Assembly (NCBI GenBank): GCA_022865355.1
Contig: JALHST010000246.1
Location: 1 to 34,193 of the forward strand
DNA length: 34,193 nucleotides
Direction: 5' to 3'
From: Maribacter sp.
GTDB lineage: Bacteria > Bacteroidota > Bacteroidia > Flavobacteriales > Flavobacteriaceae
Part shown: piece by piece, positions 18,907 to 29,166 of the stretch
Layout: each line of letters starts with the position of its first letter
Numbering within the stretch: position 1 is the stretch's first letter
The notes under the pieces: generated by a model
Database searches by the model: none
Told to the model about the DNA's origin: nothing
What the model saw: only the letters and a program-made list of their open reading frames with translations
Program-made: the position numbers and the translations under genes

Positions 18907-20103
18907 CTAATCCTCAAAAAAGCTGATCGAAGATCCGATCCAGGTATCGGCATTTTGATGGGATACATTGATTAGTCCGCCCTTTCCCATTCGGGTCAGG
19001 TTGATGACCGGTTTTAATTTGTTGCTTTCGGAATCAAGAACAAAGAGAATACGCAACTCCACCTTGGAGTTCTTATCGGTATTTGTCTTGATGATCGGGG
19101 CATAGTTGACCTTCCGCTGTAAAAGAAAGTTCGTCTTATCGGTGATTTTGGAAATGCTTTCCAGGGTCGGATTCAAATCGATCCCATGCCCGGCAAACGA
19201 AAATAGCGGCTTTAAGACAAAATCGCTCAGTTGAAGATCTGGGGGGAAGTCATTCAAATAGTATGATTGGGGAATGAACTCATGCCGCAACATGGGCATG
19301 ATACACTTTGAGATCATAAAAAACCAATCGGGATGGGTAATCCAATCTACATCGACCTCGTCGAAAAGATTAAAATTGGTTTGAACATTTTCAAGGCGTT
19401 GCATGTCATCAAAAATGACCCGGTTGTATATGCGGTGGATCGGAATTCTTTTGCCGTCCTTTTCATAGAAAAGTTTTTTGCCTTCCTTGATGACTTTGGT
19501 GATGCATACAACTTCAATACCCGAAGCCTGTTTTGTGGCCCAAAAGTCGATACGCGTCTTTTGTTTCTCTGGAAAAAGTTCCATAAGGATCACATTTTCA
19601 GGGTTTTCATCACCCAGAATTACCTTGTTCACCGTTTTCAGATAGCTGGTCTCGTCGAGATTGCCAAAGAAATAATGAAGTCCTGTCGGGTCAAGATTCG
19701 GGTAGTTATGCAGAAAAGCCTTTCCCAAAAAAGGTTGGTAATACATGAGCGACGGAAAGGCCTGCAGTTCGATCAATTGCGGGGAAATGTTGCCATCGGC
19801 ATCATCGCACAACCCAAAATCGATCGCCAAAAAATGGGGTTTTCCCAATGGACTTGGCGATTGCAAATGCTTCGGCATAAATCGTTGCCGCACAGCATCC
19901 ATATCGAGTTGCCAAATCTGATCCAAAATCGAAGCACTGGCTTCCAACACTTTCTCCTTGATCTCTTTGCTGATAAAAACCGGGGTTTCGGAGATTCGAA
20001 AAGCGCAGGGTTCCCCAAGGGTTTCGGTCACATAGTTTTGGAGATTTTCATAATACTCCTGTTTGAAGCCTTTGTTAAAGGCTTCCCTTCGTTCTGGAAT
20101 CAT
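18907..20103 (-). CDS. Putative circularly permuted ATP-grasp-like ligase
   Basis: A 398-residue soluble protein that I cannot assign with certainty. Several segments resemble circularly permuted ATP-grasp / glutathionylspermidine-synthetase-type proteins. They are a charged strand with AIDFGLCDDADGNISPQLIEL (about 93-113), RIDFWATKQASGIEVVCITKV (184-204), an EKDGKRIPIHRIYNRVIF stretch (214-231), a KPLFSFAGHGIDL loop (K298 onward) like the KPxxSxxGxGV nucleotide-binding loop, and FLLQRKVNYAPI with a later VELRILFVL (327-356). If right, it joins a carboxylate to an amine using ATP. Its ATG overlaps the stop of the amidotransferase gene (ATGA), so the two are translationally coupled, and the amidotransferase could supply ammonia or process its product. 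Confidence 0.65.
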   Translation of the reverse strand: MIPERREAFNKGFKQEYYENLQNYVTETLGEPCAFRISETPVFISKEIKEKVLEASASILDQIWQLDMDAVRQRFMPKHLQSPSPLGKPHFLAIDFGLCDDADGNISPQLIELQAFPSLMYYQPFLGKAFLHNYPNLDPTGLHYFFGNLDETSYLKTVNKVILGDENPENVILMELFPEKQKTRIDFWATKQASGIEVVCITKVIKEGKKLFYEKDGKRIPIHRIYNRVIFDDMQRLENVQTNFNLFDEVDVDWITHPDWFFMISKCIMPMLRHEFIPQSYYLNDFPPDLQLSDFVLKPLFSFAGHGIDLNPTLESISKITDKTNFLLQRKVNYAPIIKTNTDKNSKVELRILFVLDSESNKLKPVINLTRMGKGGLINVSHQNADTWIGSSISFFED

Positions 20104-20936
20104 GCCGAAATAAGTTTAGATCGATCAATAGATTCGGCCCCCAATTGCAGAAATCGTGGGATAATGGTATGGTTGGTCTTCATGATTTTGTCGTCATCGT
20201 CTAAGTGTTCGATCATTTCCAAGTATTTCTTCTTGCCAAAATGCTTTACAATTTTCTTGCGCATATCGGGTCTTTGAAAATAGTGCAACATCCCCACCGA
20301 ATCTGCTTCGGGATGAAATTGTACCCCAAAGATTTCCTTACTGAATCGGATGGCCATTACGGCCCTTTCCAAAGGAACATGGTCCCGTATTTTTTCCCTA
20401 CAGAGCACTTTTCCGTCCAAGGTGTCCAACTTCCATTCATGGGGGCCCACCACCTGATAGTCCCGGGAATCGACCGCATAAAACGGATCAGGCAAACCTT
20501 CGAAAAGTATTTCCCGCTGCCCGCTAAGGGTCTTGTAGATGGGTAAAATTCCGAAAGAAGTAGACCTTCTTTTGGTGACTTTCGCCAAATCCCAGTGAAG
20601 ACAGGCCAATTGAAAGGAGTGACAAATAAGAAACAAGTGCTTCTTGACAGGCTGTGATAAATTATGGTGCAAAATGGCATCCAACATGCCAAAATACTTG
20701 CCCTCCCAAGCTGCTCCCGAAATCAGGGGGGAACCAGGCCCTCCCGAGGAAATAAAAATATCATAGTCTTCGACTTGGGGCACCTGTGCTTCCAATCGAA
20801 CTTCAAAAACATCAAAATTGCCTTGAACGCCCTCCTTGGCCAAAAATTCGGCCACCAATTCCTTGATACAGCGTAAGCCCTCATTGGGATTTCCAGCATT
20901 CAAGTCTAAAACCGCAATTTTATAGGTATTTTGCAT
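20100..20936 (-). CDS. Class I glutamine amidotransferase-like protein
   Basis: A 278-residue stand-alone class I glutamine amidotransferase domain of GMP-synthase type. The oxyanion strand is FISSGGPGSP (61-70). The nucleophile is C105 in LICHSFQLA, where most family members have CxGxQ. The remaining triad is H208 and E210 in GVQFHPEADSVGM. So the glutaminase triad is intact. About 60 C-terminal residues extend past the domain (MRKKIVKHFGKKKY...). Known relatives release ammonia from glutamine for a partner synthetase, or hydrolyse gamma-glutamyl bonds. Its 4-bp overlap with the downstream ATP-grasp-like gene points to that protein as its partner. Upstream lies a 222-bp repeat-rich spacer. 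Confidence 0.85.
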   Translation of the reverse strand: MQNTYKIAVLDLNAGNPNEGLRCIKELVAEFLAKEGVQGNFDVFEVRLEAQVPQVEDYDIFISSGGPGSPLISGAAWEGKYFGMLDAILHHNLSQPVKKHLFLICHSFQLACLHWDLAKVTKRRSTSFGILPIYKTLSGQREILFEGLPDPFYAVDSRDYQVVGPHEWKLDTLDGKVLCREKIRDHVPLERAVMAIRFSKEIFGVQFHPEADSVGMLHYFQRPDMRKKIVKHFGKKKYLEMIEHLDDDDKIMKTNHTIIPRFLQLGAESIDRSKLISA

Positions 20937-21012
20937 TTTTTTTCTTCTTCCGAGGTGCCTTGCGCCACGCGCTTCGTACCTATAGTCTTCTTAAAATCGT
21001 CTTTATTTCAGT

Positions 21013-21055
21013 TCGCTTCGACTTCAGCCCCGTTCACTGAACACGGTCAAAGCGA
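21013..21055. repeat. REP-like imperfect palindrome in the amidoligase cluster
   Basis: TCGCTTCGAC (21013-21022) pairs with GTCAAAGCGA (21046-21055) with one mismatch. An inner palindrome GTTCACTGAAC flanked by CCG and CGG extends the fold. It lies between the GCS2 ligase and the amidotransferase gene. It resembles short palindromic repeats I have seen scattered between flavobacterial genes. No strong T run follows on either strand. Confidence 0.5.
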
Positions 21056-21063
21056 GTGTCGGT

Positions 21064-21107
21064 GAAGACCCTGTTATCGTATAAGGAAGACCCTGTTATC
21101 GTATAAG
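21064..21107. repeat. Perfect 22-bp tandem duplication
   Basis: Two identical 22-bp copies stand head to tail, 21064-21085 and 21086-21107. Each starts GAAGACCC and ends GTATAAG. There are only two copies with no spacer, so this is not a CRISPR array. It directly follows the REP-like palindrome in the spacer upstream of the amidotransferase gene. Confidence 0.9.
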
Positions 21108-21158
21108 AACGTTCGAAAATGACAAATCATATGTCGTTCAGAAGCGGTATCCAGATAC

Positions 21159-22256
21159 TCAGAGTCCTTTTGCCGTCTGCTGCACAATATAATGAACTAC
21201 TTGTTTTAAGTCATTAGTCTCCTCAAAAAGCTTGAGCTGCCTATCGGCACCCGAACCCTGTTCGAGCATCTGATACACATAATTCACTTCGGTTCGGCAG
21301 CCGAGTTCATCGACCACATCATCGATAAATTCAAGGAGTTCCTGTATCAAAAGGGCAAAAGGTACTTCCTCTTCCTTGCCGAAATCGATAAGCTTGGCCT
21401 CCACTCCCCAGCGTGCCGCGCGCCATTTGTTCTCATTGATCAAAATTCGGCGATACGATCGAAAACTCTGGTTTTTTTGATGCAATGCGCTCAGCTTGGC
21501 GATGATGCATTGCATGAGTGCCGCAATGCAGACCACCTCGTCAACAGTCATGACCATGTCGCAGATCCTGAATTCTACCGTAGGATAGAAGGGGTGGAGT
21601 CGGATATCCCACCAAATCTTCTTGCCATTGTCGATACAATTGGTCTTAACGAGCAACTCTATAAACTTGTCATACTCCCCCACACTGGCAAAATAAGGGG
21701 GAATCCCGGTTCGTGGAAACTTGTCGAATATTTTAGATCGATATGATTTGAATCCCGTCTCGCGGCTTTCCCAAAAGGGCGAATTGGTAGATAATGCATA
21801 TAGGTGTGGCAAAAAATAGCGTGCAATGTTCATAATCTGCAGGCCTTCCTCCCGATTGGGAATGCCCACATGCACGTGCATCCCAAAGATCAAATTGGAG
21901 CGCGCCACATCCTTCATTTCCGCAATCAGCTGATCGTAGCGTGGGTTTGGTGTTATCAATTGTTCGCTCCAATGGGAAAACGGGTGGGTGCCCGAGGCGG
22001 CGACCTTCAAATCTTCCTTGGCCGCCAGTTCGATGACCTGTTTACGCAAATAGGAAACCTCGTCCCGGGCCTGATTGATGTTCTCACAAACATTGGTGCC
22101 CATCTCGACCACCGACTGGTGCATCTCTTCCTTGATGCGTTCCTTCAGGATTACTTTGCCACCATCGATAATCTTCGACATCTGCGAATGGAGCGTTAAC
22201 GCCCCGCTATCCAGAATTTGAAATTCTTCCTCTATTCCCAGTGTGAACTTATGCAT
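21159..22256 (-). CDS. Carboxylate-amine ligase, GCS2/YbdK type
   Basis: A 365-residue member of the glutamate-cysteine ligase family 2 (YbdK-like). The N-terminal FTLGIEEEFQILD (4-16) carries the metal-binding glutamates. VVEMGTNVCENI (49-60), FGMHVHVGI (124-132) with the conserved histidines, and WWDIRLHPFYPTVEFRICDM (215-234) are the other core motifs. Family enzymes form an amide bond between a carboxylate and an amine using ATP; E. coli YbdK has only weak glutamate-cysteine ligase activity, so the true substrates are open. It is 21 bp downstream of the H1-tailed ATP-grasp gene, so the two are co-transcribed. Length agrees with the family. Confidence 0.92.
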   Translation of the reverse strand: MHKFTLGIEEEFQILDSGALTLHSQMSKIIDGGKVILKERIKEEMHQSVVEMGTNVCENINQARDEVSYLRKQVIELAAKEDLKVAASGTHPFSHWSEQLITPNPRYDQLIAEMKDVARSNLIFGMHVHVGIPNREEGLQIMNIARYFLPHLYALSTNSPFWESRETGFKSYRSKIFDKFPRTGIPPYFASVGEYDKFIELLVKTNCIDNGKKIWWDIRLHPFYPTVEFRICDMVMTVDEVVCIAALMQCIIAKLSALHQKNQSFRSYRRILINENKWRAARWGVEAKLIDFGKEEEVPFALLIQELLEFIDDVVDELGCRTEVNYVYQMLEQGSGADRQLKLFEETNDLKQVVHYIVQQTAKGL

Positions 22257-22277
22257 ATCGACGCTTGAATTAGGCCC

Positions 22278-23600
22278 CTATTTCGTTTTTTTAGGGGTGT
22301 TTTTTGCTTTTGCGGCAGGCTTTGTGACGGGTTTGGCTTTCGCCGCATCCTTTTTTACCGCCGTTGTTTTGGCTTCGCCTATCGCTTTTGTCGCAACTTC
22401 CCCTTTGGTCGGCGCCTTCTTGATGGCAACTGGTTTTGCCTTTGTTATCGGATTGGCTTTTTTGGCAGGAACCGCCTTGGTCTTAACGGCCTTCGGTTTC
22501 ACGATACGGGCTTTTTTGGGAGCGGACTTTTTGGCGACCGGAGACTTTGCCTGGGTTGCTTTCGGTGATGCCCCTTTGGTCTTTTTAGGAGCCGCTTTGG
22601 TTACGACCGGCTTTTTCACCGCCGTCTTTTTGGATTTCGGTTTTGATGGGGCCACCGCATTTTGCACAAAAGTACCCCAAGAGGTATTGTTCTGTTTTAA
22701 TATATGTGCATTTGCTTTTTCAACGGCATACTTAGCCGAATGCTCTACGATCCAATCAAAATTGGCCTGTCCGACCGAATTGACATCGGCATCGGGAGCA
22801 GGGTTGCAAAAGTCGATGGCATAGGGCACCCCGTCGCGGATAGCGAACTCTACGGTATTAAAATCATAGCCCAAGGCCTTGTTCAGTCGCAGGGTAAAAT
22901 CATAAATGGTGCGCATCAGCTTGGTGTGTTCCTCTCCACTGGTCTTTGGTTCGGTGGCATACCGCAAGTGCGGTTCGTTCCTAGGTTCGTAGGGCATGAT
23001 GTGAATATATTTTTGTCCTAGGCAGTACACCCGGTAATAATCATCAAAAACGATTTCTTCCTGCAGCATCATCACCAATTGACCGGTTTCCTCGAGTTTT
23101 GCAAAAAGATCATCCGCATTATCAACACGATAGACACTTTTCCATCCGCCGCCCGAGTGTGGTTTCATATAGGCCGGAAAACCGATGTAGTCGAAGATAT
23201 AATTCCAATCCAAAGGCGCTTTTAAATTCCGGAACGATTTTTCGGCAGTGTCCTCAGGGCGTTCCTTCGAAGGCAGAAGCACGGTCTTGGGTACGGGAAC
23301 CCCCACCTCCAACGCCAAACAATTGTTAAAGAATTTTTCGTCGGCACTCCACCAAAACGGATTGTTGATGACCGCGGTTCCTTTTAATGCGGCATTTTTC
23401 AGATACGCCCTATAAAAAGGTACTTCCTGCGATATGCGGTCGATAATCACATCGTACCCATAATCAATGCCCTGCTGTACCTTATCAATGCTCACGGCCT
23501 CGGCAACTACCTTGCCATTTCCCAAAGCGTTCACCTTATCTATGAAAGCCCAGGGAAAGGTGTCTTCCATCCCGAATAATATTCCTACTTTTTTAACCAT
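22278..23600 (-). CDS. ATP-grasp protein with histone-H1-like Lys/Ala/Pro tail
   Basis: A 440-residue protein in two parts. Residues 1-315 look like a RimK/D-Ala-D-Ala-ligase-type ATP-grasp enzyme. VGILFGMEDTFPWAFIDKVN opens a Rossmann-like N-terminal domain, PAYMKPHSGGGWKSVYRV (142-158) provides the ATP-binding lysine and glycine-rich loop, and MMLQEEIVFDDYYRVYCLG and NTVEFAIRDGVPYAIDFCNPAPD (about 248-270) provide the metal-binding acidic residues. Residues 316-440 are almost only Lys, Ala, Pro, Thr and Val in KKxxVxKAAPKK-like repeats, as in bacterial histone-H1-like tails. The tail could bind DNA, RNA or polyanions, or itself be modified. It lies 25 bp after the esterase gene and 21 bp before the GCS2 gene. 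Confidence 0.8.
   Translation of the reverse strand: MVKKVGILFGMEDTFPWAFIDKVNALGNGKVVAEAVSIDKVQQGIDYGYDVIIDRISQEVPFYRAYLKNAALKGTAVINNPFWWSADEKFFNNCLALEVGVPVPKTVLLPSKERPEDTAEKSFRNLKAPLDWNYIFDYIGFPAYMKPHSGGGWKSVYRVDNADDLFAKLEETGQLVMMLQEEIVFDDYYRVYCLGQKYIHIMPYEPRNEPHLRYATEPKTSGEEHTKLMRTIYDFTLRLNKALGYDFNTVEFAIRDGVPYAIDFCNPAPDADVNSVGQANFDWIVEHSAKYAVEKANAHILKQNNTSWGTFVQNAVAPSKPKSKKTAVKKPVVTKAAPKKTKGASPKATQAKSPVAKKSAPKKARIVKPKAVKTKAVPAKKANPITKAKPVAIKKAPTKGEVATKAIGEAKTTAVKKDAAKAKPVTKPAAKAKNTPKKTK
22281..22655 (-). repeat. Low-complexity DNA encoding the Lys/Ala/Pro tail
   Basis: This stretch encodes residues 316-440 of the ATP-grasp protein and is built of AAA/AAG, GCC/GCG/GCA and CCT/CCC codons in a loose periodic order. 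The repeats are degenerate at the DNA level, so the tail appears to be maintained by selection on composition and not by recent slippage. The opposite strand gives a long, artificially hydrophobic open frame. Confidence 0.7.
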
Positions 23601-23625
23601 CTGTTTTATATATTAAATTTTGTTA

Positions 23626-24336
23626 TTAAAAATAACGGCCTATATAATCCGGAAAAACCATTTTCCAGAGGGGCCAATCGTGTTCAATCCATTTTTTTTC
23701 ATCGTACCAATAGGGGATGCCCTTGGCCTCTAAGATTCCTGCCATATGTTGGTTCTTGGGCATACAACTGTCCCAATCCGACGTGCTTAGAACGATCTGC
23801 ATGTGGTGGTATTTCCAGCCTTCCTCATTCTGCATAAACTCATCGGGGCAATTGTAATAAATACGGATATCATCCGATAAGGGGGTCATATTGCGGATAT
23901 TGAATACGCCGCTCATAGAGAACAAGTGCGAAACCAGATCGGGAAATCGAAAAGCGGTATTGGCAGCGTGGTAGCCCCCAAAGCTAACTCCGGCGGTTCC
24001 GATCCTATGGGTGTTGCACTCCCCTTGCATATAGGGTATCAGTTCGTCCTTTAAAAATTGCATGAAGAGTTCATAATTATGGATCTTCGTTCCCGAATCC
24101 ATCCCATCATTATAAAAACTAAGCATGTCCAACGATTCCACATTATATAGCTTAATACGTCCTTCCTCGATAAATTGCATCACCGAACCCGTTAATCCAA
24201 AATCGGTATTCTGTGTGAATTGGCCCCCGGAAGACGGGAACATCAAGATGGGGTACCCCCAGTGGCCGGTAACTTCGAGATTGATATTTCGACCGAGGAT
24301 GTTAGAATAGTATGGTATATGCTGCACGGATGCCAT
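23626..24336 (-). CDS. Putative esterase (alpha/beta hydrolase, esterase D-like)
   Basis: A 236-residue cytoplasmic alpha/beta hydrolase. The nucleophile elbow is GVSFGGYHA with S118. The acid is likely in the STSDWDSC region (185-191) and the histidine is H219 in WIEHDWPLWKM. The early strand WGYPILMFPSSGGQF carries the oxyanion loop. There is no signal peptide. Such enzymes hydrolyse esters or thioesters, and some act on peptides. As the first gene of the minus-strand amidoligase unit (25 bp before the ATP-grasp gene), it may remove a protecting or carrier group from the product. I cannot infer the substrate from sequence. Confidence 0.85.
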   Translation of the reverse strand: MASVQHIPYYSNILGRNINLEVTGHWGYPILMFPSSGGQFTQNTDFGLTGSVMQFIEEGRIKLYNVESLDMLSFYNDGMDSGTKIHNYELFMQFLKDELIPYMQGECNTHRIGTAGVSFGGYHAANTAFRFPDLVSHLFSMSGVFNIRNMTPLSDDIRIYYNCPDEFMQNEEGWKYHHMQIVLSTSDWDSCMPKNQHMAGILEAKGIPYWYDEKKWIEHDWPLWKMVFPDYIGRYF

Positions 24337-24384
24337 AATTATAAATATACTTAAAATGATTAATTCTCAATCTTTTAAAGCCGG

Positions 24385-24392
24385 CAAATGTA
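24385..24392 (-). promoter_or_regulatory. Putative -7 element of the esterase/amidoligase unit
   Basis: CAAATGTA reads TACATTTG on the minus strand, an exact TAnnTTTG match. It lies about 48 bp before the esterase ATG at 24336, so the leader would be about 42 nt. No -33 TTG is evident. On the opposite strand TATACTTG (24435-24442), one mismatch from consensus, could serve the divergent esterase gene. Confidence 0.4.
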
Positions 24393-24461
24393 ATTTATTT
24401 TTTAGATGCCTATGTAATTTTTTTACGGATTCGCTATACTTGCAGACCCGTAGCAAAAAAC

Positions 24462-25274
24462 ATGCATTTTCAGACCGATTTTATCAGCCTCAAGGGCAGT
24501 TTTCATTCCAAAAACCTGGAAAGAAAGGTAGCCTTCCGATTGATGGCCCCTCCCAATTACAAGGATTCGGAAAAACATTATCCGGTGCTATTGATGAACG
24601 ACGGCCAGGATTTTTCGGCCCTGCAATTGGAACAGACTCTGGTCTCGTCATACAAATCAAAGGCCCTGGCGCCCTTTATCTATATCGGTGTTGAATGCAA
24701 CAAAGACCGCATCCAGGAATACGGGACGGCCTCTTCGGCCGATTTTAAGGGGAGGGGTAGTAAGGCGGCCGATTACAGCCGATTTATCATGGAGGAATTT
24801 ATCCCCTTTCTGAAGGGCGAGTTCAAGGTATCGCACCATGGACCCGACTGGGTTTTTTGTGGCTTGTCATTGGGTGGGTTATCGGCCTTGGATATCGCCT
24901 ATACGCATGCATCCCATTTTGGTAAGATCGGGGTCTTTAGTGGCTCCTTTTGGTGGCGGAAAAAAGCCTATGTCAAAAAAGATCTGCTCGACCGCAGCAG
25001 GATCATCCTTGACGTGGTCAAAAAGGGCCACTTTACCCCGCATCTAAAATTCTGGTTTCAGTGCGGTACCGAGGATGAGACGGCGGATCGCAATCATAAC
25101 GGGGTGATCGATGCCATCGACGATACCTTGGACCTCATCAAGGAACTTGAATTAAAGGGCTATTCCTATCCCGGCGATATCACCTATGTTGAGATCGAAG
25201 GCGGAAAACATGACTTGCCCACCTGGGCGGCCATTTTTCCGGAATTCATATCCTGGGCTTTTCACAAGAAATAA
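24462..25274 (+). CDS. Putative esterase with an EF-hand-like calcium loop
   Basis: A 270-residue hydrolase of the esterase D / Enterochelin-esterase-like (PF00756-type) family. The early MAPPNYKDSEKHYPVLLMNDGQD is typical of that family. The nucleophile elbow is CGLSLGGLSA with S136, and the histidine is H250 in EGGKHDLPTW. Residues 209-221 read DRNHNGVIDAIDD, which fits the DxNxNGxIDxxD calcium-binding loop. It sits just after the CGTEDE strand where the catalytic acid is expected. There is no signal peptide. The gene diverges from the amidoligase unit across 125 bp, so a second hydrolase may belong to the same pathway. Confidence 0.85.
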   Translation: MHFQTDFISLKGSFHSKNLERKVAFRLMAPPNYKDSEKHYPVLLMNDGQDFSALQLEQTLVSSYKSKALAPFIYIGVECNKDRIQEYGTASSADFKGRGSKAADYSRFIMEEFIPFLKGEFKVSHHGPDWVFCGLSLGGLSALDIAYTHASHFGKIGVFSGSFWWRKKAYVKKDLLDRSRIILDVVKKGHFTPHLKFWFQCGTEDETADRNHNGVIDAIDDTLDLIKELELKGYSYPGDITYVEIEGGKHDLPTWAAIFPEFISWAFHKK

Positions 25275-26521: not shown

Positions 26522-28333
26522 TTATAGTAAATGCCCTTTCATTCGATTCCATGCCTTGATAAGTAGGAAGCCGGAAACGAAGGCGATTACCGTTAGCACC
26601 ATGGCCTGGGGCGTTCTGCCATAGATCCAATAGCCCGTGGCGAACATGATCGAATAGATCAGGACACAGCCCAAAAGCATGGCGGTAATTCCCGAGGGCA
26701 CGCTCCATTTTTCCTTGGTATTGACAATCTGTACGTTATCTGCATTCGCCTCGTTCACTACCTTCGACCACCCAGGACCGCCCGGTTGTATTTTTTTGTA
26801 AAAAGACCGCAGGGTTTCTTTGGATTCCGGTTGGGTAACATAGGTGGCGATCAACCAAATAACGGACGTTACCACCACTACGAACGGATATTCGGCCCAA
26901 TCGGGCAATACACCGGTAGCAGGGTCGAAAAGAAACGGTTTCAAAGAGGTAAATGCCAGAACCATCGATAAAATTCCCGAGGCGAACATGGCCGCGATCT
27001 CACTCCAGGCATTGATACGCCACCAAAACCAGCGCAAGATGAAAATCAAACCGGTACCCGCACCAAAGGTCAATAATATGGCGAAGATCTGTAGGGCATT
27101 TTCCAATAATAGGGCGAACAGCGCACTCAATACCATAAGAACCACGGTCGAGAGCCGTCCCACGGCCACCATTTGTTTTTCAGTGGCTTTCGGATTGATC
27201 TGTTGTTTGTAAAAATCAAAAACAATGTATGAAGAGCCCCAATTCAACTGCGTCGAAATGGTGCTCATATAGGCGGCAACTAGGGAAGCCAACACAAGGC
27301 CTAGGAGGCCGCTTGGCAGTTTGGTCAACATGGCCGAATAGGCCAGGTCATTCCCCAATTTACTTTCCGCAATGTTCGGAAAGGCCTCGTGGATACTAGC
27401 AATATCGGGATAGACCACCAAAGAGGCCAGGGCGACCAAAATCCAAGGCCAGGGACGCAAGGCATAGTGCATAATATTAAAAAAGAAGGTCGCACCAATG
27501 GCGTGGTTCTCGTTCTTGGCGGCCAACATCCGCTGGGCGATATACCCGCCCCCACCAGGTTCTGCGCCCGGATACCACGAACTCCACCACTGCACCGTCA
27601 AGGGAATGATGAACAAGGTCACCAAGGCTTTTTTGTTACTGAAATCGGGCAGGATATTGAGTTTCGAGGCGACTGCTTCATGCTGCATAAGGGCGTGGAT
27701 GCCACCCACTTCGGGAATATTGACCAAATAGTAGGCGGCGCCGATGGCGCCGGACATGGCCACAAAGAACAGGATAAAATCGGTATAGACAACGCCTTTG
27801 AAGCCGCCCAAGGCGCTAAAGGAAACCGTAATCAAACCAGCGCCTACCACCGTCTCCCAAGGCTCGAGCCCTAACATGATGCCTCCGATCTTGATGGCGG
27901 CCAAAGTTACCGAAGCCATGGTAATGATATTGAAAAGGCCCCCCAAATACACGGCACGGAATTTTCGTAAAAAGCTTGCCGTCGCACCGCCATAACGCAT
28001 CTCGTAAAATTCAAGATCGGTATGCACGTTGGATCGTCGCCAGAGCTTCGCATATACGAAGACGGTCAATAGCCCTGTGAGCAAAAAGGCCCACCAGACC
28101 CAGTTGCCCGAAACCCCGTTGGTGCGCACGATATCGGTGACCAAATTCGGGGTGTCGGTAGAAAAAGTGGTCGCTACCATCGAGAGGCCCAAAAGCCACC
28201 ATGGCATGGTTCGGCCCGAAAGAAAATATTCGTTGGCGTCTTTCCCCGATTTTTTGGAAACATAGATCCCGATGCCCAGAACAACGGTGAAGAAGACAAT
28301 GATAAAGCTATAATCGAGGATGCTGAATTCCAT
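26522..28333 (-). CDS. Sodium:solute symporter (SSS family)
   Basis: A 603-residue sodium-coupled symporter. I start at the ATG complementary to 28331-28333 (MEFSILDYSFIIVFF), because the 77 preceding open codons are arginine/proline-rich and overlap the divergent gene. About 14 membrane helices are visible. ANEYFLSGRTMPWWLLGLSMVATTFS is the characteristic first-helix/loop signature of the family, and GGGYIAQRMLAAKNE lies in the mid-region. Substrates in this family include sugars, sialic acid and amino acids. The neighbours favour a sugar. The start codon is only 20 bp from that of the TauE/SafE gene on the other strand. Confidence 0.92.
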   Translation of the reverse strand: MEFSILDYSFIIVFFTVVLGIGIYVSKKSGKDANEYFLSGRTMPWWLLGLSMVATTFSTDTPNLVTDIVRTNGVSGNWVWWAFLLTGLLTVFVYAKLWRRSNVHTDLEFYEMRYGGATASFLRKFRAVYLGGLFNIITMASVTLAAIKIGGIMLGLEPWETVVGAGLITVSFSALGGFKGVVYTDFILFFVAMSGAIGAAYYLVNIPEVGGIHALMQHEAVASKLNILPDFSNKKALVTLFIIPLTVQWWSSWYPGAEPGGGGYIAQRMLAAKNENHAIGATFFFNIMHYALRPWPWILVALASLVVYPDIASIHEAFPNIAESKLGNDLAYSAMLTKLPSGLLGLVLASLVAAYMSTISTQLNWGSSYIVFDFYKQQINPKATEKQMVAVGRLSTVVLMVLSALFALLLENALQIFAILLTFGAGTGLIFILRWFWWRINAWSEIAAMFASGILSMVLAFTSLKPFLFDPATGVLPDWAEYPFVVVVTSVIWLIATYVTQPESKETLRSFYKKIQPGGPGWSKVVNEANADNVQIVNTKEKWSVPSGITAMLLGCVLIYSIMFATGYWIYGRTPQAMVLTVIAFVSGFLLIKAWNRMKGHLL

Positions 28334-28353
28334 AATATTGGTTTTTTGGTCGC

Positions 28354-29166
28354 ATGATAAAGATATTATTTTTTGGCATACTTTTGAGCTTTGACCACGA
28401 AACCTCTTATGTGACCTTATCCATCGCCTCCGAACCTTCCTTGACCGCTTGGGTGCTTGCCTTTGCCTCCGCCTTTGTGTTGGGGGTGACCAAGGCCGGA
28501 TTAAAAGGGATCGATGTGCTATTGGTAACCTTGATGGCCTTGGCCTTTGGGGCCAGGGAATCAACGGGCATCATCGTACCCCTATTGATTACGGGCGACA
28601 TTTTCGCAGTCATCTACTACAGCCGCCACGCCCAATGGAAATATATTTTTAAGTTTCTTCCCTGGATGCTGGCCGGGGTCTTGGTCGGCGTACTCATCGG
28701 CAAAGACCTCGATGAACACACCTTTAAAATCGGAATGGCCCTGATCATCCTGTTGAGTGTCGTCATCATGTTCGGATGGGAAAAAAGAAAATCGCAATCG
28801 GTGCCCACACATTGGGCCTTTGCAGGTTTTATGGGTATCATGGCGGGGATTACCACGATGATCGGCAATCTGGCCGGGGCTTTTGCCAATATCTTTTTTC
28901 TTGCGATGCGCTTCCCGAAAAATGAATTTATCGGTACCGCGGCCTGGCTGTTCTTTATCGTCAATCTTTTTAAGCTCCCCTTCCATATTTTTGTTTGGGA
29001 AACCGTTACCCCCCAAACCCTGCTCCTCGATCTAAAACTCATCCCGGGGGTGCTCCTCGGATTGTTCGTCGGGGTACGCCTGGTGAAGATCATCAAGGAA
29101 GGGTTTTACCGAAAAATGATCCTGGTGCTCACCGCCCTAGGGGCGATTTTGATCTTGTTCCGATAG
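28354..29166 (+). CDS. TauE/SafE (TSUP) family membrane exporter
   Basis: A 270-residue protein with about eight hydrophobic helices. The family repeats are visible in the first half (AFVLGVTKAGLKGIDVLLVTLMALAFG) and second half (AGITTMIGNLAGAFANIFFLAMR). TSUP proteins move sulfite, sulfoacetate, taurine-related or other small organic anions. Substrates are hard to predict. The start ATG at 28354 lies 20 bp from the start of the divergent symporter, so its promoter must be inside the symporter's 5' end, or the two share very compact control. No later in-frame ATG would keep the first helix intact. Confidence 0.88.
   Translation: MIKILFFGILLSFDHETSYVTLSIASEPSLTAWVLAFASAFVLGVTKAGLKGIDVLLVTLMALAFGARESTGIIVPLLITGDIFAVIYYSRHAQWKYIFKFLPWMLAGVLVGVLIGKDLDEHTFKIGMALIILLSVVIMFGWEKRKSQSVPTHWAFAGFMGIMAGITTMIGNLAGAFANIFFLAMRFPKNEFIGTAAWLFFIVNLFKLPFHIFVWETVTPQTLLLDLKLIPGVLLGLFVGVRLVKIIKEGFYRKMILVLTALGAILILFR

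Follow-up and report, generated by a model that had tools for sequence, protein, structure and literature searches.

A conserved cluster of three amide ligases, a glutamine-amidotransferase-like protein and two esterases in Maribacter and other Bacteroidota

What would a bacterium build with three different amide ligases, encoded beside a glutamine-amidotransferase-like protein and two esterases? The question is raised by positions 18,907 to 25,274 of a stretch of Maribacter sp. DNA of 34,193 nucleotides (assembly GCA_022865355.1, contig JALHST010000246.1, positions 1 to 34,193 of the forward strand), which as a whole is called the window here. Six open reading frames (ORFs), at coordinates given beforehand, form the block, five on the minus strand and the sixth diverging from them; EstA, EstB, RIMK, GAT and AGB are labels coined in this analysis.

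EstB, 24462-25274, plus strand: diverging esterase, 270 residues, PF00756.
EstA, 23626-24336, minus strand: esterase, 236 residues, alpha/beta-hydrolase, PF00756.
RIMK, 22278-23600, minus strand: ATP-grasp ligase, 440 residues, with a Lys/Ala/Pro-rich tail at about residues 313-440.
GCS2, 21159-22256, minus strand: YbdK-type carboxylate-amine ligase, 365 residues, PF04107 and NF010039.
GCS2-GAT gap, 20937-21158, minus strand: 222 base pairs (bp).
GAT, 20100-20936, minus strand: class I glutamine-amidotransferase-like protein, 278 residues, PF00117.
AGB, 18907-20103, minus strand: ATP-grasp ligase with a predicted glutathione synthetase/YgiC/glutathionylspermidine synthetase fold, 398 residues.

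The ORF list confirms all of the gene coordinates, together with the close packing noted in the original prediction: 25 bp between EstA and RIMK, 21 bp between RIMK and GCS2, and a 4-bp overlap of GAT and AGB. The 222-bp space between GCS2 and GAT was not mentioned there.

Whether these genes belong together is answered by their order in relatives. A contig scan with AGB gave 13 named flavobacterial loci, from Maribacter, Aureibaculum, Cerina, Pricia, Dokdonia and Leeuwenhoekiella (three of them metagenome-assembled), and in 13 of 13 an EstB homologue diverges from EstA-RIMK-GCS2-GAT-AGB in the same order and orientation; locus L041 has AGB and EstB, and L042 has GCS2, broken into two frames. 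The scan, made with this one protein, returned close relatives only. Within the phylum, matches in a sample of 148 Bacteroidota genomes number 49 for AGB, 60 for RIMK, 52 for GCS2 and 41 for GAT, counts that include the distant RIMK of genomes G007 and G087 (33-34% identity) and a GAT of 23.6 bits in G134. AGB and GCS2 share 47 genomes (phi 0.90), AGB and RIMK 48 (0.82) and RIMK and GCS2 50 (0.83), with GCS2 present without AGB in five genomes; GAT is shared with RIMK in 40 genomes (phi 0.72), with AGB in 30 (0.53) and with GCS2 in 32 (0.56), and all four proteins are found in 28 of the 148. The Fisher values for these pairs ignore shared ancestry and are not readable as probabilities. In the window's own family AGB is unmatched in 11 of 15 sampled genomes, the genome of the window being part of the sample.

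For the arrangement of the genes across the phylum, 47 AGB loci were compared, that is, the 49 AGB genomes minus G107 and G125 (AGB in an 867-residue frame, did not cluster); the G107 locus, L044, left out in this way, has the full six-gene order and looks like L038. AGB terminates an unbroken run of cluster genes in 30 of the 47, two of them with an M29 peptidase directly before AGB. EstA-RIMK-GCS2-GAT-AGB stand in a row in 12 loci, with EstB diverging alongside in six of these, and EstA-RIMK-GCS2-AGB in another arrangement of five loci; RIMK and GCS2 are side by side in 25 of the 30 runs, gaps inside the runs are mostly below 100 bp, and the flanks of the cluster vary between genome families. 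AGB is alone in 17 of the 47 loci (G066 is counted here though contig ends cut its cluster). The genomes with a lone AGB have GCS2 elsewhere in 17 of 17 cases and RIMK in 16 of 17, the exception being G144, and in G101 (family f22) RIMK, GCS2 and AGB lie at three separate places. The scattered single homologues without conserved adjacency that would have refuted the original prediction are not what we find: adjacency is conserved, and so is co-occurrence with varied flanks, which the original prediction had named as the mark of one system.

Gene trees of AGB, GAT, GCS2 and RIMK add to this picture. Each holds 21 rows, taken from loci in which all four genes lie in one fetched locus (5 of the 13 named loci among them), and was made by a quick search without bootstrap. 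All four group G142, a member of the window's family (f1), with two f8 genomes, G076 and G111, with support in the Shimodaira-Hasegawa-like approximate likelihood ratio test (SH-aLRT) of 100, 99, 99 and 99 for AGB, GAT, GCS2 and RIMK, respectively. Because the four trees agree on G142, movement of the block between families as a unit suggests itself, and joint transfer is best read as the simplest account of the trees. The recurrence of the gene order in 13 of 13 loci and across the phylum is much more than chance, and from order, co-occurrence and trees together the genes very probably form one amide-ligase pathway. No homologue of RIMK, GAT or AGB was found on plasmids at 1e-3, and no relative of RIMK in viral contigs; GCS2 matches 71 plasmid records, all below 60% identity. 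One internal stop each was seen in the RIMK frames of G086:C1, G113:C67 and G030:C1, from either assembly error or decay.

What kind of pathway this would be depends on the single enzymes, of which GCS2 is the most readily placed. It matches PF04107 at 209 bits (E 9.5e-62), the "carboxylate-amine ligase" model NF010039 at 546 bits (cut-off 371) and TIGR02050 above its cut-off, aligns over its full length with YbdK (1r8g, E 3.9e-50), and carries the GhExE signature of the family as G7-I-E-E-E11, with G7, E9 and E11 kept in more than 95% of 41 rows. The genome has no other PF04107 match. Enzymes of the GCS2 type usually use the gamma-carboxylate of glutamate for ligation, and a title cited in the excerpted text of the same source gives YbdK a gamma-glutamyl:cysteine ligase activity (PMC2588565).

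The last point, together with a neighbour of glutathione-synthetase fold, recalls the gene pair of glutathione synthesis and would fit a low-molecular-weight thiol pathway, in which gamma-Glu-Cys would come from GCS2, AGB would be the glutathione synthetase, conjugates would be trimmed by GAT, and S-acyl thiols would be the substrates of the esterases. Ordinary glutathione synthesis, which the original prediction had set against its own proposal, is unsupported: GCS2 falls under the cut-off of every glutamate-cysteine ligase model that it matches, and the genome's only PF02955 match at E 0.001, on C39, is a RimK, above cut-off for PRK10446, with the glutathione synthase models below theirs. 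A bacterial GshB was accordingly not found by this PF02955 scan of the 319-contig assembly, in which the N-terminal domain of GshB was not searched. Nor does RIMK have an obvious role in thiol synthesis. The bacillithiol gene bshC is matched in 147 of the 148 genomes (144 over cut-off), with or without the cluster, so nearly all cluster carriers have another thiol route. Over cut-off it is missing from four genomes, G109 with no match at all and G059, G086 and G136 with matches below; since all four, three of them from one family, carry AGB, RIMK and GCS2, we rate the thiol pathway slightly higher, and still consider it unlikely. As an observation in its own right, bshC looks near-universal in the phylum, and G109, the sole genome without a match, carries cluster genes.

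AGB itself has no Pfam or NCBIfam match at 0.001, and the ligase call made for it in the original prediction had to be judged by structure. An AlphaFold2 model built from 13 window-like sequences has a mean predicted local distance difference test score (pLDDT) of 80.0, with residues 1-9 and 375-398 below 50. Foldseek returned 21 matches at E up to 0.001 (E 3.3e-13), namely (homo)glutathione synthetases, glutathione-synthetase-like effectors, glutathionylspermidine synthetases (GspS), and YgiC/YjfC or Cp1B. In VIA-align 2 the model aligns with YgiC (7uk8) at Z 23.2, with a root-mean-square deviation (rmsd) of 3.7 over 337 aligned residues and 15% identity; with human glutathione synthetase (8fbz) at Z 22.4, rmsd 3.8 and 354 aligned, glutathione synthetases overall reaching about 18-22.5; and with GspS (2io8) at Z 21.4, rmsd 4.2 and 341 aligned, GspS entries spanning 21.1-21.4. 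Structural rows 1-25 all belong to this group (Z 17.9-23.2), and the next, 3k1t, drops to Z 11.1. On this modelled evidence the predicted fold of AGB is that of the glutathione synthetase/YgiC/glutathionylspermidine synthetase ATP-grasp group, which bears out the ligase call; because the top rows are nearly tied, the closest member within the group is not settled. A profile of 50 AGB proteins searched against solved structures has YgiC as its sole match (E 0.0052), and 19 of the 50, the window's protein not among them, match PF03738 at E up to 1 (best 3.7e-5). D95, E112 and Q114 are present in 61 of 61 rows.

Two loci of family f26 show AGB next to a transporter. In L084 (7637-10240, plus strand) AGB and a sodium:solute symporter share one open frame of 867 residues, and in L087 (9290-11869, minus strand) a symporter gene, 53% identical to that of L084, stops 18 bp short of AGB on its upstream side. 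Identity to the L084 symporter is just 21% for the symporter of the window (26522-28564).

The protein encoded directly upstream of AGB is informative about its partner. GAT matches PF00117 at 30.7 bits (cut-off 22.8, E 3e-7), and Cys105, His208 and Glu210, the triad of the class I domain, are kept in 34 of 34 rows. It stands directly upstream of AGB in 20 loci, including most complete clusters, with the 4-bp overlap in seven of the 20. In L071 and L077, from genomes G055 and G093, both of which lack GAT, an M29 peptidase takes its position, and the place is held by an Amidohydro_3 protein in nine loci, all from families f22 and f25, with a 4-bp overlap with AGB in five; a tenth copy (L059:11137-12966, minus strand) sits between GCS2 and GAT. 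Pfam searches identified three of the nine together with the L059 copy, and clustering the remainder. Moreover, 18 of the 46 genomes carrying AGB, RIMK and GCS2 have no GAT, and therefore ammonia from GAT is not needed everywhere. Because three unrelated hydrolase types adjoin AGB, these arrangements suggest that its partner is a hydrolase rather than an ammonia supplier.

Hydrolases beside ligases could also serve breakdown. GAT-like hydrolases act as gamma-glutamyl hydrolases in the Puu route of putrescine degradation, and catabolism or detoxification of amines or amino acids by gamma-glutamylation, with the ligases capping and the hydrolases uncapping, would be a similar scheme; an amidohydrolase or M29 peptidase beside AGB and the symporter-AGB frame would fit uptake and breakdown. 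Three different ligases exceed what a cap-and-uncap cycle needs, however, and beyond the core genes no gene family, the minor ones being partly annotated, is present in more than 10 of the compared loci, so that the cluster does not generally include an oxidase or dehydrogenase. We find such a catabolic route distinctly unlikely.

The third ligase, RIMK, has no Pfam or NCBIfam match over cut-off; TIGR00768 is matched at 28.6 bits (E 8.4e-7), under its cut-off of 143.4. A model of residues 1-320, with a mean pLDDT of 68.9, aligns with RimK (5zk6) at Z 16.7, rmsd 4.2 and 238 aligned residues, and further with PsnB (Z 16.0), LysX/ArgX (15.6) and MdnB/MdnC (14.7), so the fold is predicted, from a model of that quality, to be that of RimK, LysX and the graspetide ligases. 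A relation to R2K ATP-grasp proteins, seen as weak Pfam matches in 18 of 35 members (best E 0.0019), was not used as evidence. The first 310 or so residues are very conserved. The tail that had been called H1-like is real in composition, residues 313-440 holding 31% K/R, 34% A/P and three acidic residues, and is long in the window's family and some others; it is cut to 5-20 residues past alignment position 312 in families f2, f10, f14, f17, f28 and f32, and also in L059 (f4), two f8 genomes and the f1 genome G142. Because it is absent or short in many families, the basic tail is not essential to the system.

These features bear on two further explanations. In the first, RIMK and AGB would modify a protein or the ribosome with amino acids or amines, and the hydrolases would be erasers; the predicted RimK fold agrees with this, and the basic tail might be a binding site for RNA or an acidic target. 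Against it stand the families with a short tail, the separate true RimK (PRK10446) of the genome, and the lack of any tag or precursor ORF (20-75 residues, within 1.5 kilobases (kb)) beyond one genome family in 41 loci, and we hold protein modification to be very unlikely. In the second, the locus would be a graspetide-type ribosomal peptide cluster with RIMK as macrocyclase, for which PsnB and MdnB/MdnC score near RimK in the comparison above. With no shared precursor gene near the ligase in the same loci, little room in the gaps of the runs, and no obvious role for GCS2 and AGB, this explanation was already disfavoured and is barely credible. The same comparison of ORFs of 20-75 residues within 1.5 kb speaks against a ribosomal peptide or a Pup-like tag, no such ORF being common to more than one genome family; the widest groups of small ORFs cover three Maribacter loci and three f3 loci. 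The f3 loci L055, L057 and L061, and no others, have in common a small Cys-rich, membrane-like ORF near the cluster (about 40 residues shown).

The two esterases complete the block. PF00756 is matched at 34 bits by EstA and 94 bits by EstB (cut-off 22), and a sequence search for solved structures gave none for EstA (E up to 0.01) or EstB (E up to 1e-8). In EstA we find a G-x-S-x-G-like motif and a candidate triad of S118, D189 and H219, assigned from conservation, with Ser, Asp and His kept in 15 of 18 aligned cluster proteins; in EstB, G-x-S136-x-G and H250 are found, and all six aligned rows keep S136 and H250.

Taken together, we believe there is marginally better than an even chance that the cluster encodes a single pathway for a small peptide-like metabolite, assembled by ATP-driven, non-ribosomal amide ligation and with an exchangeable deblocking hydrolase. 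Its product would be a gamma-glutamyl peptide or a peptidyl-amine, because GCS2-type enzymes usually use the gamma-carboxylate of glutamate and AGB's relatives of solved structure couple polyamines or amino acids to peptides or acids. In such a pathway GCS2 would join the gamma-carboxylate of glutamate to an amine, capping the substrate, and RIMK would add an amino acid or a second acid or amine unit. AGB would activate a free carboxylate as an acyl phosphate and couple it to an amine, as do its closest solved relatives (with polyamines, glycine and amino acids). GAT would use its Cys-His-Glu triad to hydrolyse a gamma-glutamyl or amide bond, and so to remove or recycle the cap, and would not be a source of ammonia; in some other families the M29 peptidase or the amidohydrolase would fill its place. 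EstA and EstB, finally, would cut an ester, thioester or amide bond so that the compound is released, matured or recycled, and may thereby unmask or release the product. The original prediction had offered a peptide-like metabolite or a protein modification: one conserved system is borne out by order and co-occurrence, and the protein-modification branch gained no support, as no small ORF (20-75 residues) near the cluster was common to more than one genome family in 41 loci.

Several observations weigh against this synthesis. GCS2, not a hydrolase, is directly upstream of AGB in eight loci (GAT lies elsewhere in the f14 genomes among these and is missing from the f10 genomes), and eight lone-AGB loci (L049, L060, L065, L075, L084, L085, L087, L089) have another gene there, two of them a symporter, the remaining ones not having been searched by family. 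AGB occurs without GCS2 in G037 and G064 and without RIMK in G144. EstB adjoins the run in only 6 of 30 cases, and three EstA copies of f14 (L067, L074, L083) lack Ser and His with the gene still in place. The chemistry of AGB may also be non-standard. Changing R139, D141, E163 or N165 of Cp1B abolished or much reduced its activity, according to the excerpted text of PMC12568646; when the R-x-D...E-x-N pattern of Cp1B is matched to AGB, by spacing only, D95 and E112 are kept and the Arg and Asn positions differ, with mostly A, Q, V or T at position 93 and Gln at position 114 throughout, so that the Cp1B-like Arg and Asn are not where expected.

A second layout points the same way. Twelve genomes have RIMK and no AGB, two of them with the distant RIMK of G007 and G087, and seven of the other ten were fetched; in all seven of these loci with a strong RIMK, it is followed by a circularly permuted ATP-grasp protein (PF14403) and then by GAT. 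PF14403 was found by family search in one locus, the other proteins being 52-91% identical to that one. Another esterase follows in five of the seven loci, and EstA precedes in four. Because both layouts hold RIMK and GAT, these two are a shared core and the second ligase varies; with AGB replaced by PF14403, the product may differ. A relation between AGB and PF14403 could not be drawn from profile comparison (E 0.0064, with a probability of 5.9%). From both layouts a wider scheme can be sketched, which we regard as possible but doubtful: a phylum-wide pathway of modular build that makes a peptidyl-amine serving as cofactor or signal, with a conserved RIMK, an interchangeable GCS2 plus AGB or PF14403, exchangeable deblockers (GAT, M29 peptidase or amidohydrolase), and AGB as a new subfamily of the glutathione-synthetase fold with an E-x-Q metal site.

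Outside the block, the neighbours in the window are riboflavin synthase and PdxA on the AGB side (Pfam/NCBIfam), and, beyond EstB, a NagX-like protein that scores under the cut-off of its family and the sodium:solute symporter. PdxA and riboflavin synthase also lie beyond AGB in L034-L037, L041 and L042, and in L039 the riboflavin synthase is cut; neither is found within about 9 kb in L031, L032, L033, L040 and L043, and L038 ends 198 bases past AGB. Because the flanks are kept in some relatives only, the unit is the six-gene block and not its surroundings. The GCS2-GAT gap contains a perfect 22-bp tandem repeat in two copies (21064-21107), which is absent from the corresponding gap in relatives. 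No Rfam element is matched in the window at gathering scores, and a role in anti-phage defence was discarded, with none of the six proteins matching PADLOC-DB.

These ligases are carried by roughly a third or more of the Bacteroidota genomes sampled, yet the window's RIMK and AGB have no family match over cut-off. A conserved and apparently mobile biosynthetic unit of six proteins in a defined order is a direct target for metabolomics, and the named carrier genera Maribacter, Aureibaculum, Dokdonia and Leeuwenhoekiella allow comparison with relatives that lack the cluster. A description of the cluster was not found among titles and abstract openings, a coverage outside which the 2009 amidoligase survey of Iyer et al. 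falls, and the excerpted texts of PMC4431377, PMC12568646, PMC2588565 and PMC8939145 do not describe it.

How, then, does the cluster compare with known systems? AGB is predicted to share the fold of YgiC/YjfC and E. coli GspS over nearly its full length; it is just 13-15% identical to them, however, and unlike them sits with GCS2 and RIMK. The amidase of GspS is a Cys enzyme. GspS joins its synthetase to that amidase, and AGB is similarly coupled, by the 4-bp overlap, to the Cys-hydrolase-like GAT. In the excerpted text of PMC12568646, YgiC and YjfC are called peptidylpolyamine synthetases, and Cp1B of the E-64 pathway makes the amide of an acid and an amino acid. Cp1B (9cjn, Z 19.6) is, as proposed for AGB, a stand-alone amide ligase of this fold in a small pathway without a non-ribosomal peptide synthetase; it differs in being fungal, in having an oxygenase, a decarboxylase and an adenylate-forming enzyme as partners, and, matched by spacing, in its E-x-N where AGB has E-x-Q (112, 114) and in the Arg that AGB does not conserve two residues before D95 (PMC12568646, excerpted text). 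GCS2 resembles other GCS2/YbdK ligases in its full-length match, signature and family scores, and differs in belonging to a cluster of five to six genes. The nearest precedent for the arrangement is that of Iyer et al. (2008), whose neighbourhoods of a GS-fold ligase and a "glutamine amidotransferase-like thiol peptidase" have a predicted role in making peptide metabolites, glutathione-related or other (PMC2588565). Both place a carboxylate-amine ligase beside a GAT-like peptidase, whereas the published neighbourhoods, in the excerpted text, have another ligase family, come from proteobacteria and firmicutes, and name no RIMK or AGB partner. Because such pairs of a ligase and a GAT-like peptidase have already been proposed there, we regard the cluster as a more complex form of a known kind and not as a new kind.

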